Below the pieces are notes generated by a model. That model searched no databases. It was not told the origin of the DNA and was given only the letters and a program-made list of their open reading frames with translations. Both the position numbers and the translations under genes were made by a program. From IMG/VR virus record IMGVR_UViG_3300027963_000412, positions 1-20,143 of that record: a stretch of 20,143 nucleotides of DNA; one strand, 5' to 3'. Below are positions 356-8,227 of this stretch, piece after piece. Source of the stretch: a virus. Every line of letters starts with the position of its first letter. The stretch's first letter is position 1.

Positions 356-871
356 TCAGCCTTCATAATCTCTATGCATTTGTCGATCAATTTCAAGTTC
401 GTGTTGTCTCGCTAACTCAGCATCGGTTGGTTTTCTTGGATTGGGTCTTACAGGTCGTTGTCCATATCTCTCTAATGTTCTTTCTCTGGCTGCGCCTAAT
501 CTTTGTTCTTGTGGGTCTGTTGATCCTGAATAATAACCGGTTCGTAAATGTGCCAAAACATGTTTTAGATCTTCTGTTGAAGCACCATCTGGTGAACGTG
601 AGTCTAAACCTTCTACGCCTACAGCATCTCTCAGAACACGTTCTACGGCTTCAATATCCATATCACGATGATTATCTGGATTTCTCATAATTCTGATCAG
701 ATTGGATACCATCTCTTCTCGCCTGTCGGCTCTTAATGACACTCCGGCTACTTTGTTTCCGTCATTATTTCTGCGAATACTGTCTATTGAGTTTAGTCTG
801 GCTTCAAGAATATTAACTTTTTGTTCAAGTTGTTCTGATAAATTTTTATAATAGTTTGTTAGGTAGTTCAT
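356..871 (-). CDS. Putative head-packaged internal protein with shared N-terminal tag (171 aa)
   Basis: The function is not recognised. Residues 1-25 ([20 protein letters not shown] onward) form an amphipathic helix that recurs at the start of four more proteins in this window. It is followed by I21-L22-E23|A24, which fits the L/I-x-E site cut by T4-type prohead protease gp21. The rest is highly charged, probably helical, with many Arg/Glu/Asp and no membrane segment, and ends in a basic, Pro-containing stretch before an acidic tip. A TATAAATA late promoter lies 26 nt upstream. This member, unlike its paralogues, has a real leader with an AAGGA ribosome-binding site. A strong terminator follows. 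By analogy with T4 internal proteins, I infer that the N-terminus directs packaging into the head and is then cleaved. That role is inference. A structural or scaffold protein is the alternative. Confidence 0.7.
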   Translation of the reverse strand: MNYLTNYYKNLSEQLEQKVNILEARLNSIDSIRRNNDGNKVAGVSLRADRREEMVSNLIRIMRNPDNHRDMDIEAVERVLRDAVGVEGLDSRSPDGASTEDLKHVLAHLRTGYYSGSTDPQEQRLGAARERTLERYGQRPVRPNPRKPTDAELARQHELEIDRQMHRDYEG

Positions 872-897
872 TATAGTCCTTGTTCTTTTACTCTTTA

Positions 898-905
898 TAT
901 TTATA
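898..905 (-). promoter_or_regulatory. T4-type late promoter TATAAATA
   Basis: This is an exact T4 late consensus on the minus strand, 26 nt before the ATG at 871. The leader carries AAGGA at SD distance. Confidence 0.75.
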
Positions 906-912
906 AGTAAAT

Positions 913-2094
913 TTATTTAATTGGTTTTTTTGTACTAGGAAATCCGCCAACCAACATTCCTGCGTGTATTTTTACATGGTGATTGTTGAAAGATTCTACT
1001 AATTTCATCTGAGTTCCTGCAGAATGGGCGGATCTTATTTCTTCTCTTCTTCTGTTTAAATTTTCAATATGACCCATTGCTTGAGAAACTGCTTGATCAT
1101 ATGCAGTTCTTTGTTGTTTGTTTAATTTTGCGACATCTTTTGCAAGTTCAGTTCCAATGAACTGAGGACTTATTATATGTTCGTGACCCTTTCCTACGTG
1201 ATATGTATGAGAACCAAACAATTCTTCTGGTTTTGGCATTGAACCCCGATGATCTTCTGCTGTCTCCCATGCTTTTTGATATTGTGATACAATGTGTTCT
1301 GGGTCCAATCCAAAACCACTGAACCCTGTATTCAAATGAATGCCTGAATGTGGTGTTTGTCCTTTATAAACATCTTGTATTATGCGTCCAACACGACTAG
1401 AAATAAGTCCGTGGGCAGTTCCCAACAGACGTCTCATTACTTCTGTTTTTCTCTCTTTTGGTTTTTTTGTTGCATCTAAAAATTTTGCAACTTCTTTGTC
1501 AGTTGGTTCTTTTATTTCCTTTGGTTTTCTTTTTTTTCCTTTTACCTTTGCTTCTTCTGCCGCCATTTCTTCTTCTTGGGCTCTTTGACGTCTCAAAGTA
1601 CCTCTTGCCTCACTACCATTTCCAAAAATAGTTGGATCTGACCATGCTTTAATTTGATCCATCTCCCACTGAGCATCTCTTGCATGTTTCTGAATTCCCA
1701 GATGGTCAGCCTCAAGGGGTTTGGTTCCCCAACCATACATGTGTTGGACTATTGCACGTCCTTCGTCAGCATTAGCAGGTATTCTCCATGATATGGATTT
1801 TCCAACTGCTTCGGGTGGTTTTGCCAAAGATTGTGAAAAATTGGTAATTTTACCAGATACACCACTCAATTTATTTGCTGCAGATTGAACAAAATCTGAT
1901 GCTTTTTGTACTGCTCCAGAAGCTCTATTAAAAACACCTCTTCCCAAAACATTTTTTGCAACATCTGTTAAATAACCTTCTTCTACATTTATTTTTTTAT
2001 TTATCATAGAATTATTTGATAAATTATTAAGTATATTTTTTTCCCATGCAAGTTGTTTTGATAGGTTCTTATGATAATTTGTTGGGTAATTCAT
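913..2094 (-). CDS. Putative internal or structural protein with divergent shared N-terminal tag (393 aa)
   Basis: This is the largest of the five genes with the shared N-terminal helix, and the most divergent (MNYPTNYHKNLSKQL). The canonical L/I-x-E site is missing. The nearest candidate is V37-E38-E39|G40. Residues 45-100 are Ala/Ser/Gly-rich and amphipathic. About residues 160-215 are a strongly charged Lys/Glu-rich, probably coiled-coil segment. The C-terminal half carries several His-rich patches (for example SHTYHVGKGHEH) and another helical stretch. No enzymatic motif was recognised. An AATAAATA late motif sits exactly 5 nt before the ATG and there is no ribosome-binding site, so the message is predicted to be leaderless. 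It sits between two paralogues on the same strand. Packaging into the head is inferred only from the shared start. It could instead be a minor virion protein. Confidence 0.65.
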   Translation of the reverse strand: MNYPTNYHKNLSKQLAWEKNILNNLSNNSMINKKINVEEGYLTDVAKNVLGRGVFNRASGAVQKASDFVQSAANKLSGVSGKITNFSQSLAKPPEAVGKSISWRIPANADEGRAIVQHMYGWGTKPLEADHLGIQKHARDAQWEMDQIKAWSDPTIFGNGSEARGTLRRQRAQEEEMAAEEAKVKGKKRKPKEIKEPTDKEVAKFLDATKKPKERKTEVMRRLLGTAHGLISSRVGRIIQDVYKGQTPHSGIHLNTGFSGFGLDPEHIVSQYQKAWETAEDHRGSMPKPEELFGSHTYHVGKGHEHIISPQFIGTELAKDVAKLNKQQRTAYDQAVSQAMGHIENLNRRREEIRSAHSAGTQMKLVESFNNHHVKIHAGMLVGGFPSTKKPIK

Positions 2095-2099
2095 AAAAT

Positions 2100-2107
2100 T
2101 ATTTATT
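2100..2107 (-). promoter_or_regulatory. Late promoter AATAAATA, 5 nt before ATG
   Basis: The minus strand reads AATAAATA-ATTTT-ATG. If initiation follows the T4 rule (sixth base after the box), +1 is the A of the start codon. Confidence 0.6.
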
Positions 2108-2124
2108 ATTTCAAATTTTTAATA

Positions 2125-2904
2125 TTATTGAATTGAACTTGCCATGGATTGGGCAATTTCATCTTCTGACATTCCAGATTTTCTCATTCTGTCTTGTTGT
2201 TTTGTTCTAGTCTCAACGGAGGCAGTGAAAGCAGAACCAATTGGATCCAATGCAACCTCTGCTGCACCCTGTGCTGCACCTAATGATTTATCTGCTGCGT
2301 CGACTGCCCAATCAGGTATTCTTGAAAAAGCTGCTCTGGAACCTTTTTCAACAGCATCGAATACTCCTGCTTTCTCTGCAGCTGGTTTGACTAAGTGTTG
2401 TCCTATTAAATTACCAACAATTCCTGCTCCAATCCCCTTGGCTACATTGCCAGCTGCACGGCCAACTGATCTGGCAGTTGTTGATGGTATTTCTGTTGAA
2501 GGTGCCTGTGGCTTAAGATCAAGTCCGTGTCTTTTTCCAGCATCTATCATGGAAGCTTCCCATTCAGCTATCTCGGATGCCGGAGCTCCTTTAGATTTTA
2601 GATGGGATATAGCCCTTTGGTAGTCTGTATAATTCATTTCACGTGCAGCTGATGGAGCTGATGGAGCTGGCTTTGTAAGATCAAGTCCGTGTCTTGCTCC
2701 AGCTTCTACCATTTCAGCTTCCCAATCAGCTATTTGGGATGCCGGAGCTCCTTTAGCTTTTAAACTATCTAAAACTTTTTCGTAGTCTGTATAATTCATT
2801 TCACGTGCAGTAACTTCAGATTCTGACAATAATTTATTTAAATAATTTACTCGTTCTTGAAGTTGTTCCGAAAGATTTATGTAATAATTTGTTAGATAAT
2901 TCAT
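2125..2904 (-). CDS. Putative internal protein with shared N-terminal tag and duplicated 44-residue repeat (259 aa)
   Basis: The N-terminal tag [20 protein letters not shown] ends in L26-S27-E28|S29, a gp21-like cleavage site. Two tandem repeats follow at residues 33-76 and 87-130, with a period of 54 residues. Each contains REMNYTDY, a GAPAS-x-IA-x-WEA core and ends in RHGLDL. They are joined by a Pro/Ala/Ser linker. Residues 145-225 are Ala/Gly-rich and amphipathic, with GIGAGIVGNLIG as a glycine-zipper-like patch that could insert in or lie on membranes. No known domain was assigned. The gene has its own exact late promoter TATAAATA 5 nt before the ATG and no ribosome-binding site. The repeat units resemble small helical modules and may bind a partner. 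The glycine-zipper patch would fit a protein delivered to the cell envelope with the DNA, but that is speculation. Confidence 0.7.
   Translation of the reverse strand: MNYLTNYYINLSEQLQERVNYLNKLLSESEVTAREMNYTDYEKVLDSLKAKGAPASQIADWEAEMVEAGARHGLDLTKPAPSAPSAAREMNYTDYQRAISHLKSKGAPASEIAEWEASMIDAGKRHGLDLKPQAPSTEIPSTTARSVGRAAGNVAKGIGAGIVGNLIGQHLVKPAAEKAGVFDAVEKGSRAAFSRIPDWAVDAADKSLGAAQGAAEVALDPIGSAFTASVETRTKQQDRMRKSGMSEDEIAQSMASSIQ
2515..2646 (-). repeat. Tandem coding repeat, copy 2
   Basis: This encodes residues 87-130 of the 259-residue protein. It matches copy 1 with a 162-bp offset at both DNA and protein level. Both copies begin with Ala-Arg-Glu-Met-Asn-Tyr-Thr-Asp-Tyr and end with Arg-His-Gly-Leu-Asp-Leu. 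Confidence 0.85.
2677..2808 (-). repeat. Tandem coding repeat, copy 1
   Basis: This encodes residues 33-76 of the 259-residue protein. It is nearly the same as copy 2, which points to an internal duplication in frame. Confidence 0.85.
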
Positions 2905-2909
2905 AAAAT

Positions 2910-2917
2910 TATTTATA
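2910..2917 (-). promoter_or_regulatory. Late promoter TATAAATA, 5 nt before ATG
   Basis: The minus strand reads TATAAATAATTTTATG, identical in box, spacer and start codon to the promoter at 3746-3753. Confidence 0.7.
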
Positions 2918-2936
2918 ATTAAAGAATAATATCAAA

Positions 2937-2944
2937 GATAAATA
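2937..2944 (+). promoter_or_regulatory. Late promoter GATAAATA for the small membrane protein
   Basis: GATAAATA is followed by a 16-nt stretch containing AAGGAGA and then ATG at 2961. It is back to back with the minus-strand late promoter at 2910-2917. Confidence 0.55.
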
Positions 2945-2960
2945 TCTGAAAGGAGATACT

Positions 2961-3122
2961 ATGTTAGATAATATTAAGAATTTTGTGAAGTCTGTTACAC
3001 CCATCACTTGGATCCTCGTTGCTGTCGGTGTCCTTGCTGTAGTCGTTCTCACACTTTCTGCAACCCACGCCAAGGCTTCCGCAGCTGCTCCAGCAGCCGT
3101 AGAGGCCCCAGCAGCCAAATGA
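2961..3122 (+). CDS. Small single-pass membrane protein (53 aa)
   Basis: This short gene is read from ATG at 2961, 5 nt after a strong AAAGGAGAT ribosome-binding site. It ends at TGA before a perfect terminator. Residues 1-14 are polar (MLDNIKNFVKSVTP). Residues 15-32 form one hydrophobic helix rich in Val, Leu and Ile (ITWILVAVGVLAVVVLTL). The tail is Ala/Pro-rich (SAAAPAAVEAPAAK). No family was recognised. The size, single helix and late promoter would suit a holin-like, spanin-like or superinfection-related protein, but nothing proves it. Its C/G-ending codons (GTC, CTC, GCC) differ from its AT-rich neighbours. This suggests either high expression or a different origin. It is the only plus-strand gene in a block of minus-strand genes. 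The antisense reading of the same stretch is spurious. Confidence 0.75.
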   Translation: MLDNIKNFVKSVTPITWILVAVGVLAVVVLTLSATHAKASAAAPAAVEAPAAK

Positions 3123-3148
3123 GCCTATAAGCCATTCTGGTAATGAAC

Positions 3149-3177
3149 AAGGGATCCAATTTCTTGGATCCCTTTTT
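3149..3177 (+). terminator. Rho-independent terminator of the small membrane protein gene
   Basis: An 11-bp perfect stem (AAGGGATCCAA / TTGGATCCCTT) with loop TTTC is followed by TTT and an A/T-rich run. It lies 27 bp past the stop at 3122. Confidence 0.85.
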
Positions 3178-3197
3178 ATTTTTAAATTTTTTAATTA

Positions 3198-3740
3198 TTA
3201 AATATTTTTTGACATTCTTGAAAATTTATTTTTAATTTCATTATAGTCAAAAGTATTCCTTGATTGTCCTACTGTTTTATCTCTTAAAAGATTTAAATCA
3301 TTGTTGAGATTTGCTAGTGGATGATCTTCTCTTTTAATCGAACTTATCATATCTCTTCGTTCTTCTGGCATTATATCGATTGCATCTGGATTGCCGTATC
3401 TTTGAATGTATGGTGATCTTTCTTTTTGTTTAAAAAGACGGTCAGGGGTTTTGATGGCGTTAGTGTCAAGCCAGTTTTTACGTGCATCTGGATTGTATTT
3501 TGGTGGAACGTAATCAGGGCTTAACCAAGGTTTTGGAGACCATTCGGTTCCTCTTGAATCTGGTGTATTTGGAGTGAAATAATCTTTAGCTGCACCGGGT
3601 TCAAAAAATGATTTTCGAGATGGCTTTGGCTTTATATATGTGATGTCAAATTGTCCTTCATTCAATTGTGCATTAAGGACATTGACTTTTTCTTGAAGCT
3701 GATTACAGAGATTCTTGTAATAAGTTGTTAGGTAATGCAT
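3198..3740 (-). CDS. Putative internal protein with shared N-terminal tag (180 aa)
   Basis: The protein starts MHYLTTYYKNLCNQLQEKVN, the fourth copy of the shared tag. It has a clean gp21-like site L26-N27-E28|G29. The remainder is polar, Pro-rich and basic, with many aromatic residues (for example KPWLSPDYVPPKYNPDARK around 75-95) and no predicted membrane segment. It looks extended rather than globular. No known family was recognised. An exact late promoter lies 5 nt before the ATG, and no ribosome-binding site is present. The body shares nothing visible with the paralogues beyond the tag, so the tag behaves as a module fused to different cargoes. Function unknown. Head packaging is the favoured inference. 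Confidence 0.7.
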   Translation of the reverse strand: MHYLTTYYKNLCNQLQEKVNVLNAQLNEGQFDITYIKPKPSRKSFFEPGAAKDYFTPNTPDSRGTEWSPKPWLSPDYVPPKYNPDARKNWLDTNAIKTPDRLFKQKERSPYIQRYGNPDAIDIMPEERRDMISSIKREDHPLANLNNDLNLLRDKTVGQSRNTFDYNEIKNKFSRMSKNI

Positions 3741-3745
3741 AAAAT

Positions 3746-3753
3746 TATTTATA
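3746..3753 (-). promoter_or_regulatory. Late promoter TATAAATA, 5 nt before ATG
   Basis: The minus strand reads TATAAATAATTTTATG. It is the same 16-mer as upstream of the 2125-2904 gene. Confidence 0.7.
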
Positions 3754-3791
3754 AAACCGAAAAAAGGGGGGTCGGTTTAAAGATCTATTAT

Positions 3792-4253
3792 TTATTTGAT
3801 GTTTTTACTGATTACTTCACGACGATGTAAAAGATAACTATCGGTATTATTTACTTTTCCGTCGTTATTGATGTCATCATCTTCTTGGCCAACTCGATCA
3901 AGAGTTGGGAATGACTTCATAAAAGGAAGAATATTATCAATTTCGGCTTCAATATCTTGTAGATTGGATTGAATATTTCCTAAAGAACTATGGCTGGCTG
4001 CGTGTTGACTGGCTATGTCTCTGGTTGTTGGGTCATCCCAACCACGAACATTTGCCTGCCTATACATATTTGTTCCCAGAATTTTTATCTGTTCTTCGGT
4101 TCTTTTTATTCTATGAGCGGCTTTTGCTCTTTCTTTAGATAGAGCTTCATAATCTTTGGTCTTCAATGCTCTCTTGAGACCTGATTCCAAAATGTTTATT
4201 CTTTGTTCAAGATCTTCGCAAAGATTTTTGTAATAATTGGTTAGATAATTCAT
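3792..4253 (-). CDS. Putative internal protein with shared N-terminal tag and an EF-hand/dockerin-like loop (153 aa)
   Basis: The fifth tag copy ([20 protein letters not shown]) is followed by I21-L22-E23|S24, a gp21-like site. Residues 28-60 are Lys/Glu-rich and probably coiled coil. Near the C-terminus, D127-I-N129-N-D131-G-K-V-N135-N-T-D138 matches a calcium-binding EF-hand/dockerin loop. Acidic or Asn ligands stand at positions 1, 3, 5, 9 and 12, with Gly at 6 and a hydrophobic residue at 8. Only one such loop is present, whereas cellular dockerins usually have two. The promoter is GATAAATA, 5 nt before the ATG, overlapping the stop of the HNH gene upstream. The role is unknown. A Ca2+-stabilised C-terminal module in a packaged protein is the inference. 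Confidence 0.7.
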
Positions 4254-4258
4254 GCAGA

Positions 4259-4266
4259 TATTTATC
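4259..4266 (-). promoter_or_regulatory. Late promoter GATAAATA, 5 nt before ATG, overlapping a stop codon
   Basis: The box contains the TAA stop (4264-4262) of the HNH gene. The spacer TCTGC is 5 nt. Confidence 0.6.
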
Positions 4267-4633
4267 TTAAATTTTTGTTATTGAACATTACCTTCTTGGT
4301 AACTGGATCAGTGTGTCTCAAAGCATGGCAATTTGGACATACAAATACACCTTTGGCCAATTCATTATCTACTTTTTGGTAGCTATTGCATGCATTCATG
4401 TTCAGATGTTTTTCTTCCTCGTGGTGAAATACCAATGCATTTGGGTTTACATTCCAACCACAATCAACACACCCACTTTTTTCTTTTAATTCATAGACAT
4501 ATTTTGTTACACCGTTATAATGTCTTTGTACCTGCTTGGCTTTATTTGCTTTGCAAACAGAGCATCTGCATCCTTTATTGTAATTTGTTACAGTTGTAGT
4601 ATTGCATACGGCTATAGATGAATCTATTGTCAT
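4262..4633 (-). CDS. HNH endonuclease (123 aa)
   Basis: This is a small HNH-family nuclease of the free-standing phage type. The N-terminus has the common pattern of a Tyr-x2-Gly-Cys-Arg-Cys-x2-Cys-Lys cluster (about residues 18-28). The catalytic part has C-V-D-C-G-W (about 55-60), N-A-L-V-F-H-H (the HH pair) and C-P-N-C-H near residues 99-103. These two Cys pairs fit a zinc-bound beta-beta-alpha HNH fold. Such enzymes nick or cut DNA and often act as homing endonucleases. No intron is seen next to it. A CTAAATA motif lies 10 nt before the ATG with no clear ribosome-binding site. It adjoins the tagged-protein cluster, where it could have promoted cassette exchange. Family assignment is firm; the biological target is unknown. 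Confidence 0.85.
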
Positions 4634-4702: not shown

Positions 4703-4930
4703 ATGGATAAAAAATATATGTGGAATCAACCAAAAAAATCTGGTCAATCATTAGAAGACGCTATTCGTGGTGTACAACAAAAATATAAAAATCGCCCAAG
4801 TCCATTAGTCAACGTACAAGAAAATGTACATTACATTCCAACCCATGTGCCCGATCACATGTCTCCAACAAAAGACTTTAGAGATAATTTGTTAGGATCT
4901 TTTAAACCATCTAAAGATACTTTTAAGTAA
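4703..4930 (+). CDS. Hypothetical phage protein (75 aa)
   Basis: This is a small basic, polar protein (starts MDKKYMWNQPKKSGQ) with no membrane segment and no motif that I recognise. The middle (residues 30-55) is rich in Pro, His and Val and looks unstructured. The late-type promoter upstream and the hairpin covering its stop codon suggest a separate transcription unit. Start chosen at the first ATG. Only a weak TAAGAA lies 4-10 nt upstream. Codon use is A/T-ending, like the rest of the phage. Confidence 0.6.
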   Translation: MDKKYMWNQPKKSGQSLEDAIRGVQQKYKNRPSPLVNVQENVHYIPTHVPDHMSPTKDFRDNLLGSFKPSKDTFK

Positions 4931-7127: not shown

Positions 7128-7687
7128 ACATTTTTGTTTTGGACAATGATGCCGCTACTTCCGCTCGTATGATGTGCGATAAGCACGTTGTAAAAATGAT
7201 TCTTGAGTCTTGTCAGTTGCTTTCAACTGCGCACCATGTTTTGGATGGTGATCCGTTAGAAGTCAATACTGGTAAGCGCAGGTACACCACGCATGTATGC
7301 ACAAAGAAAAATATCTGTAAGGCAGCAATGATTAATCATCCTTGCAATATTTGGACTCGTACAACTGGAGAAAATTATCTTTGGCTTTGGAAGCATGCAT
7401 ATGCATTGTGCAAGGAATACACTCGCCGCTACGGTAAGGTTCATTCAATGGAATCGATGTTGTTGAATGAATTGTATGACTTTCCTGTTAATTTGTCAAA
7501 AGGCAAATTGACTCCATTTGTTCAAGCCATGCCTGAACAATATAAGAATGAAAATCCAGTAGTTGCTTATCGCAGTTATTACATTAACGAGAAGGCGGCT
7601 TTTGCGAAGTGGAAGGCGACTGAGGTGCCTGAATGGTTTGTTGAGAAGATTGCTTACGTTTCTTCTGACGTTCTGGTTCCGTTCTGA
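7124..7687 (+). CDS. Conserved phage protein of unknown function (187 aa)
   Basis: I recognise the overall pattern from T4-like cyanophages and other aquatic phages, where it is left as hypothetical. Features are the start MNIFVLDNDAATSARMMCDK, H-V-V-K-M-I-L-E-S-C-Q, a central HPC-x-I-W followed by Y-L-W-L-W-K and E-Y-x-x-R-Y-G-K, and a C-terminal T-P-F-V-Q-A-M-P plus V-A-Y-R-S-Y-Y and F-A-K-W-K. Conserved His, Trp and Tyr residues suggest an enzyme or a nucleic-acid-binding protein. A distant relation to DNA glycosylases such as DenV crossed my mind but I cannot support it. It overlaps guaC by ATGA, so the two are co-translated. Its last 104 bp lie antisense to the end of the lysozyme gene. 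Confidence 0.75.
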   Translation: MNIFVLDNDAATSARMMCDKHVVKMILESCQLLSTAHHVLDGDPLEVNTGKRRYTTHVCTKKNICKAAMINHPCNIWTRTTGENYLWLWKHAYALCKEYTRRYGKVHSMESMLLNELYDFPVNLSKGKLTPFVQAMPEQYKNENPVVAYRSYYINEKAAFAKWKATEVPEWFVEKIAYVSSDVLVPF

Positions 7688-8216
7688 TTGCATCAGCAAG
7701 TTTTTGCATTCTTGGTGCAATACCAGTTTTGTCTCTTACAGATTCTCTATAGTCTTTAGCATCAATATATTCTATTGATGCTCCAGAATAATCTCCTGCA
7801 TTCAATTTTTTAAGAGCATTAGGAGATTTTCCTAACATACCTCTAAATTGTTCAGAAGCAAGTTGAGCTTGAAGTTCTGAAGAATAATTACTAAAATTAG
7901 GAACTAATTTTTGAACTTGTGGTAAACGAGTTCGAACATCTCTTTCAAGCAATTTATCTGCTTCTTGCGGTGTTAGTTTTGCTTTGCCACTCAAAACATC
8001 AGGATTAATATTTAATTCAGCAAAGATTTTTGGAGACTGTGCAGTTATTAAATGTCCATGTCCAACTGTATCTAATCCTTTGCTATCTTTATATACAGAA
8101 AGAATTTTTTCTTCATTACCAGCAGATTCATATCCTTTTATTTCTTTGCAAATACCATTAAGATCACATTGAATTTGTTGAGAGCCTTCGATTAAAAATT
8201 GTTGAAATGTTTTCAT
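7584..8216 (-). CDS. GH24-type phage lysozyme with T4-like capsid-targeting N-terminus
   Basis: This peptidoglycan muramidase has a domain at about residues 22-175. I-K-G-Y-E30 aligns with the catalytic Glu region of GH24 lysozymes. Y-K-D44-S-K-G-L-D-T50-V-G-H-G-H aligns with T4 lysozyme Asp20 and Thr26 (same 6-residue spacing) and the GxGH turn. About five extra residues lie between Glu30 and Asp44. The first residues MKTFQQFLIE|G copy the T4 capsid-targeting peptide MKTYQEFIAE|A in length, aromatic positions and the L-x-E cut site. I chose ATG at 8216; an in-frame TTG at 8267 would add a hydrophobic stretch but has no ribosome-binding site. The final 33 residues (Arg/Lys/Gln/Ser/Pro-rich) overlap the convergent gene and are low-complexity. 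A minus-strand CTAAATA motif lies at 8290-8296. It could be a lysis enzyme or, more interestingly, a head-packaged one. Confidence 0.85.
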   Translation of the reverse strand: MKTFQQFLIEGSQQIQCDLNGICKEIKGYESAGNEEKILSVYKDSKGLDTVGHGHLITAQSPKIFAELNINPDVLSGKAKLTPQEADKLLERDVRTRLPQVQKLVPNFSNYSSELQAQLASEQFRGMLGKSPNALKKLNAGDYSGASIEYIDAKDYRESVRDKTGIAPRMQKLADAIRTEPERQKKRKQSSQQTIQAPQSPSTSQKPPSR

Positions 8217-8227
8217 GATATTAATGC

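Follow-up and report, generated by a model that had tools for sequence, protein, structure and literature searches.

The window analysed here is the whole of a 20,143-base fragment of a T4-like phage (IMG/VR record IMGVR_UViG_3300027963_000412), and on its minus strand lie five genes, A to E, whose products begin with a common N-terminal sequence, the tag, and continue into bodies without visible likeness. Elsewhere in the window, genes for gp4-type head closure, the tail tube and the baseplate were recognised, as was a gp32 sharing about 49.5% identity with its counterpart in Synechococcus phage S-CAM1. The tagged genes and their tags are as follows, with ↓ marking a cut or junction and labels of the form L052 denoting records.

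356..871, minus strand: tagged gene A, 171 amino acids; body function unrecognised, body relative at L052:1778-2266
803..871, minus strand: tag of gene A, residues 1-23; predicted cut ILE23↓A, further site LSE13
913..2094, minus strand: tagged gene B, 393 amino acids; mostly helical model of low confidence
1978..2094, minus strand: degenerate tag of gene B, residues 1-39; putative cut VEE39↓G, placed through the body homologue L054:5152-6564 (LEE↓G)
2125..2904, minus strand: tagged gene C, 259 amino acids; body relatives in L165, L166, L167, L011, L025 and L130, likewise tagged
2821..2904, minus strand: tag of gene C, residues 1-28; predicted cut LSE28↓S, further sites LSE13 and LQE17
3198..3740, minus strand: tagged gene D, 180 amino acids; no body relatives found
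3657..3740, minus strand: tag of gene D, residues 1-28; predicted cut LNE28↓G, further site LQE17
3792..4253, minus strand: tagged gene E, 153 amino acids; helical-hairpin body and C-terminal Ca-loop module
4185..4253, minus strand: tag of gene E, residues 1-23; predicted cut ILE23↓S, further site LCE13

An earlier note on this DNA had described five genes with a common start and bodies that share nothing visible, and both observations held: a degenerate start pattern matched exactly five places in the window and its reversed form none, and BLASTP placed the five bodies in five separate families. The same pattern, used to look for further tagged open reading frames (ORFs) in the window record, matched none beyond these five. 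A profile of the tag matched four of the genes at E values of 8e-18 to 4e-17 and the degenerate copy starting at 2094 at 7e-7. The four cleavage sites that the note had named, in genes A, C, D and E, were right and are those listed above; it had overlooked the additional sites within the tag at E13 and E17, the late promoters next to the start codons and a T4-like start on the lysozyme-family protein described below.

Pattern scans beyond the window located the tag in about 50 contigs from IMG/VR that belong to a single uncultured T4-like lineage, whose major capsid protein is about 53% identical to that of cyanomyoviruses. When whole records were searched, the tag was present in 45 of 45, in at most five copies each, and a reversed control pattern occurred in 0 of the 45, ruling out chance matches. 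A profile run over all reading frames recovered 124 complete tagged proteins (114 non-redundant), the bodies of which formed 50 families at an E value of 1e-3 and 45 at 1e-2. The tag was not found by tblastn in 50,697 phage records, searched with the consensus and six tagged proteins (A to E and one from L041), a search in which the 29-residue query may have been masked as low-complexity; the tag profile likewise had no match in six cultured or single-cell records, the same profile having matched three known tag-bearing records. Matches in genome contigs were unrelated Clostridia proteins resembling the tag by chance. The strings MNYLTNYY and NYLTNYYKN were absent from the literature searched, a body of text with most subscription journals outside its coverage.

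The tag consensus reads M-(N/D)-Y-L-T-N-Y-Y-K-N-L-(C/S)-E-Q-L-Q-E-(K/R)-(V/I)-N-x-L-E, followed by a variable stretch up to a last L/I-x-E that falls mostly at residue 23, 27, 28 or 31, and directly past this last site the information per column drops from 2-4 bits to <0.8. L/I-x-E is the motif after whose E the T4 protease gp21 cleaves (PMC9026906). Sites also recur within the tag, at E13 in 87 proteins and at E17 in 60, with 2.5 sites per tag compared to 0.74 in shuffles. The tag is strongly amphipathic (moment 1.42 vs 0.61 in shuffles), and residues 2-32 of gene E form a single helix in an AlphaFold model. The claim that tag DNA differs mainly synonymously was borne out in the four window copies compared, where the proportion of synonymous differences (pS) was 0.37-0.86 and that of nonsynonymous differences (pN) 0.14-0.24; across the tag codons of 117 copies, pS was 0.75 (saturated) and pN 0.23, a pN/pS of about 0.31. 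Because synonymous sites are saturated and nonsynonymous ones conserved, the peptide itself is under selection. One tagged protein, L088:226-1530, has a second, internal copy of the tag (NYYNNLSKQLQERINYLQHILNE), which directly precedes the part that it has in common with a differently started homologue in L048.

The same genomes use a second start, MKSFKxFLxE (class I), which closely resembles the T4 capsid-targeting sequence (CTS) MKTYQEFIAE; the tag of genes A to E is referred to below as class II. Homologous bodies bear the class I CTS in one phage and the class II tag in another, with the junction exactly at the E. Thus MKSFIQYLQE↓SGLKKALDTG in L090 corresponds to MDYQAQYYKNLCEQLQGRINLLE↓AGLKKALSTG in L097 (55% identity over 135 amino acids, E 1e-44), and MKSFKDYLRE↓Q.. 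in L049 to ..KLIAE↓Q.. in L041. Other starts are exchanged in the same way, QVNE↓ASRPTFIPLT and TLNEMGRPNFIPLT against TLNE↓VVRPTFIPLT, and in the family of gene B, VEE39↓GYLTDVAKN against MHNQENLEE↓GYFGDLAKN. In an alignment of the gene E family, the body of which is the commonest kind of cargo (E↓(A/S)GLKKAL..), tags ending at residue 23 or about 28 and the 10-residue T4-like form all join the body at the same column. Such natural swaps on homologous bodies imply that the class II tag would be functionally interchangeable with a known CTS. A third common start, MFKDYxFFSNNLQDAAxQILE and its relatives, was seen in L048, L108, L130 and L151 on bodies related to tagged ones, and possibly represents a third capsid-targeting class. 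Within the window, a class I start is borne by one further gene.

7584..8222, minus strand: Phage lysozyme-family protein with the T4-like CTS MKTFQQFLIE↓G (class I)

This start suggests that the lysozyme-family protein may itself be head-packaged. Its relatives in L012, L030, L109, L136 and L141 have similar starts and the same CDxNGICK segment.

We then compared the distribution of the protease motif between tags and bodies. An L/I-x-E with its E at residues 23-38 was present in 111 of 114 tagged proteins, and its frequency in the next three 16-residue windows was 2.7%, 1.8% and 6.3%. The tagged bodies as a whole contained 63 such sites vs 134 expected from shuffles (0.47, z -7.5), and with depletion averaged by family the ratio was 0.57, a value as low as which was reached in 0 of 300 shuffles. 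In other proteins of the same phages, L/I-x-E stood at 1.14 of expectation. An artefact of composition or disorder was ruled out by the motif variants, none of which was depleted in the tagged bodies ([LI]xD 1.29, [LI]xQ 1.29, [LI]xK 1.26, [VAF]xE 1.11). Class I proteins of the same phages were likewise depleted (0.32), as was the body of the major capsid protein (0.50). In T4, which served as a control, IPI, IPII and IPIII have no L/I-x-E past the CTS, and gp22 has 16 vs 5.9 expected. The simplest reading is that tagged bodies coexist with an active gp21-type protease.

A search for such a protease, which the earlier note had recommended, succeeded in the lineage and failed in the 20-kb window: Peptidase_S77 was present in 11 of 45 records, the records being fragmentary. 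Its setting is gp17, sheath, tube, portal, two small core-like genes, gp21, an unassigned gene, gp22 and gp23, with head-gene names assigned by order, and by Pfam where tested; Pfam confirmed Gp23 and the T4 scaffold family in the lineage. These head proteins themselves do not carry the tag. Between gp21 and gp22, a protein of 228-267 amino acids was found in 8 of 8 records examined (e.g. L138:12-722), with no Pfam match for the one tested. A link to the prohead protease also comes from the C-terminal part of gene E.

3792..3917, minus strand: Ca-loop (EF-hand/dockerin-like) module of gene E, residues 113-153

In other phages this module is either fused to a Peptidase_S77 prohead protease (L183:341-1399) or part of the ORF that immediately precedes Peptidase_S77 (L178:1824-2120), and many further T4-like phage proteins have it too. 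Judged by where it occurs, the module is a second, independent link between gene E and the prohead.

The upstream regions of the tagged genes were likewise distinctive. The T4 late promoter core TATAAATA was present in the 60 bases preceding 47 of 124 tagged genes, compared to 51 of 875 others, and in 74 tagged genes a TAAATA core ended exactly five bases before the ATG. Since a gap of five bases leaves no room for a ribosome-binding site, transcripts of these promoter-abutting genes are probably leaderless. In the window, four of the five tagged genes have a promoter abutting the start codon; abutting sites there number 5 in total, compared to 0.64 expected, and 0 of 100 shuffles had as many.

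898..905, minus strand: late-promoter-like site TATAAATA upstream of gene A
2092..2105, minus strand: late-promoter core abutting the start codon of gene B (TAAATAATTTTATG)
2902..2917, minus strand: late promoter abutting the start codon of gene C (TATAAATAATTTTATG)
3738..3753, minus strand: late promoter abutting the start codon of gene D (TATAAATAATTTTATG)
4251..4264, minus strand: late-promoter core abutting the start codon of gene E (TAAATATCTGCATG)

By their promoter motif, the tagged genes would be expressed late, as the T4 internal proteins are.

We propose, with a probability of about 0.87, that the common N-terminus is a removable capsid-targeting propeptide, forming a second class that acts like the T4 CTS and is unrelated to it in sequence. 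Expression of the tagged proteins would be late and often driven by a promoter directly adjoining the ATG; the amphipathic helix of 23-31 residues would dock them on the prohead core; a gp21-like protease would cut after the E of the tag's terminal L/I-x-E, and probably at E13 and E17 as well, so that the tag would leave as small peptides. Purging of L/I-x-E from its body would let the cargo stay in the head, from which it may finally be ejected with the DNA. Docking, cleavage, retention and ejection are all steps that we infer. The earlier proposal of a tag that targets diverse cargo to the head, where a gp21-like protease cuts it off, finds strong support in the site depletion, the tag swaps, the late promoters and the presence of Peptidase_S77. 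The likeness it had drawn to the T4 targeting peptide survived in function, in that the tag seems to work like a CTS, but not in sequence or length; because neither of these fits, we did not file the tag as a member of the T4 CTS but as a second class used beside T4-like CTSs.

Several observations weigh against this proposal. The tag of gene B has no strict L/I-x-E, and L/I-x-E is retained in 41 of 114 tagged bodies. The large folded head proteins of T4 (Alt, gp23 and gp24) are not depleted of the motif, and depletion therefore marks only head proteins that are exposed or disordered. Neither gp21 nor the capsid genes lie within the 20-kb window, the basic isoelectric point (pI) of the tagged bodies (median 8.1) is not uniform, and domain searches of these bodies did not identify a cargo function.

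A different account, which we regard as unlikely, holds that the tagged proteins are minor components of the prohead core or scaffold, with the tag as a core assembly helix, and that they would help to shape the head and be mostly degraded or lost rather than delivered. The tag is indeed a coiled-coil-like amphipathic helix, the gene E module does occur on core-region proteins, and T4 IPIII influences head assembly (PMC9026906). However, core proteins for which digestion in the prohead is expected proved to be enriched in L/I-x-E (gp67-like 2.27, gp68-like 2.96, gp21 3.51, gp22 2.45), in contrast to the depleted tagged bodies, which therefore appear built to survive, and 45-50 body families in variable copy number are unlike a structural role.

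Considerably less probable is the view that the tag is a mobile gene-start cassette, comprising the late promoter, the ATG and the beginning of the coding sequence, which recombination has spread for the sake of expression and whose peptide has little function. Promoter, five-base spacer and tag do stand together in the 74 genes mentioned, but the peptide is under purifying selection, it ends at a protease site and is exchanged there for a T4-like CTS, and several tagged genes, such as gene A, have no abutting promoter. The least probable account, that the tag routes proteins to the tail, the membrane or another late assembly site and that the L/I-x-E pattern is incidental, can draw on the tail and baseplate genes of the window and on generic helical tail proteins among the Foldseek matches, but is opposed by the specificity of the depletion for the gp21 motif, by swaps involving a T4-like head CTS and by the lack of any recognised tail-fibre or membrane feature in tagged bodies.

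A broader extension of the capsid-targeting proposal, to which we would give slightly less than even odds, is that this uncultured sister lineage of the cyanomyoviruses uses at least two, and probably three, unrelated tags in parallel (MKSFKxFLxE, the MNYLTNYY-type tag and MFKDYxFFSNNLQDAAxQILE). These would dock different sets of cargo on different parts of the prohead core and be removed by one protease, and tag, ATG and abutting late promoter would constitute a plug-in cassette able to load any late product into the head.

Concerning the cargo itself, almost no domains were recognised in the tagged bodies, apart from Dockerin/EF-hand loops, DUF7178 and one weak peptidase/endolysin-like stretch, and because of this the word effector is applied to the cargo as a hypothesis. 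Of defence or counter-defence genes, one weak PADLOC match was obtained among 116 proteins and none was otherwise recognised. The median pI of the bodies was 8.1 vs 6.1 for other phage proteins. Scans of viral contigs returned no body relatives of A, B or D, and among the loci of tagged records A and B each had one; gene A had no match in cultured phages. The structure model of gene B was unusable (predicted local distance difference test score 48.7), and that of gene E was a confident helical hairpin, for which Foldseek against viral structures gave generic helical matches only, none at E <0.001. At the opposite end, tagged proteins mainly of two families have common tails (such as HVTPSQY, HSSNATY or TTGSQQY; records L012, L017, L041, L052, L058, L080, L089, L093, L096, L124 and L134), and a C-terminal Y is found on 20 of 124 tagged proteins vs 18 of 761 others.

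Other features of the window were noted in passing. An HNH-endonuclease-like ORF (CxxC ... HH ... CxxCH by eye) adjoins gene E at 4262-4633 on the minus strand. At 4703-4930 on the plus strand lies a small conserved gene (SLEDAIRxVQxKYKNRPSPL), which is near or divergent from tagged genes in about 10 records and often has a late promoter of its own. At its end, over positions 1-51, the contig consists of about 51 consecutive G residues, which probably arose as an artefact of sequencing or assembly.

Compared with known systems, the class II tag is like the T4 CTS of the gp21-processed internal proteins IPI, IPII, IPIII and Alt in being an N-terminal peptide common to unrelated bodies (here 45-50 families) and in ending in a gp21 site (strictly so in four of the five window genes). 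The setting is also alike, with late genes and a T4-type head that has a Peptidase_S77 protease; like the small T4 internal proteins IPI, IPII and IPIII, whose cargo part has no further sites, the tagged bodies are depleted of them, and their raised pI recalls the basic internal proteins of T4. The tag nevertheless differs from MKTYQEFIAE, which has aromatics at positions 4 and 7, in having L at 4 and Y at 7 and no overall resemblance, in its length (23-31 residues vs 10-19) and in its usual two or three internal gp21 sites. Unlike in T4, the promoter abuts the ATG, tagged genes are many (five consecutive ones in 4 kb here) and the tag shares its genomes with T4-like CTSs. The class I CTS of these phages has the same putative protease site and the same site depletion as class II, and sometimes the same body family, but is only about 10 residues long and shows no similarity to the MNYLTNYY tag.

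Head propeptides of the giant phages SPN3US and phiKZ are likewise long and N-terminal with extra internal cleavage motifs (PMC5694885); gp53 and gp54 have an identical 15-residue start and diverged bodies (PMC5694885), and the extra sites within propeptides have been proposed to aid clearance of the fragments (PMC5694885). Their motif, however, is A/S-x-E, their propeptide sequences are different and often exceed 100 residues, and no large set of unrelated bodies stands under one tag. The principle of a cleaved CTS is thus already known, and what appears to be new is the tag class, together with its use in parallel to T4-like CTSs, the several sites inside the tag and the cassette form with an abutting promoter.

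With the tag, head cargo would become recognisable by sequence in a large group of uncultured T4-like phages, where a tagged start would predict that a protein travels in the head. The approximately 50 cargo families, nearly all of them without an assigned function, become ranked candidates for delivery at the start of infection, counter-defence included. The tag may also offer a second, possibly orthogonal, capsid-loading signal for phage engineering in laboratory strains. Head residency can be tested in other phages, too, by a simple calculation, the depletion of protease sites seen here in tagged bodies.

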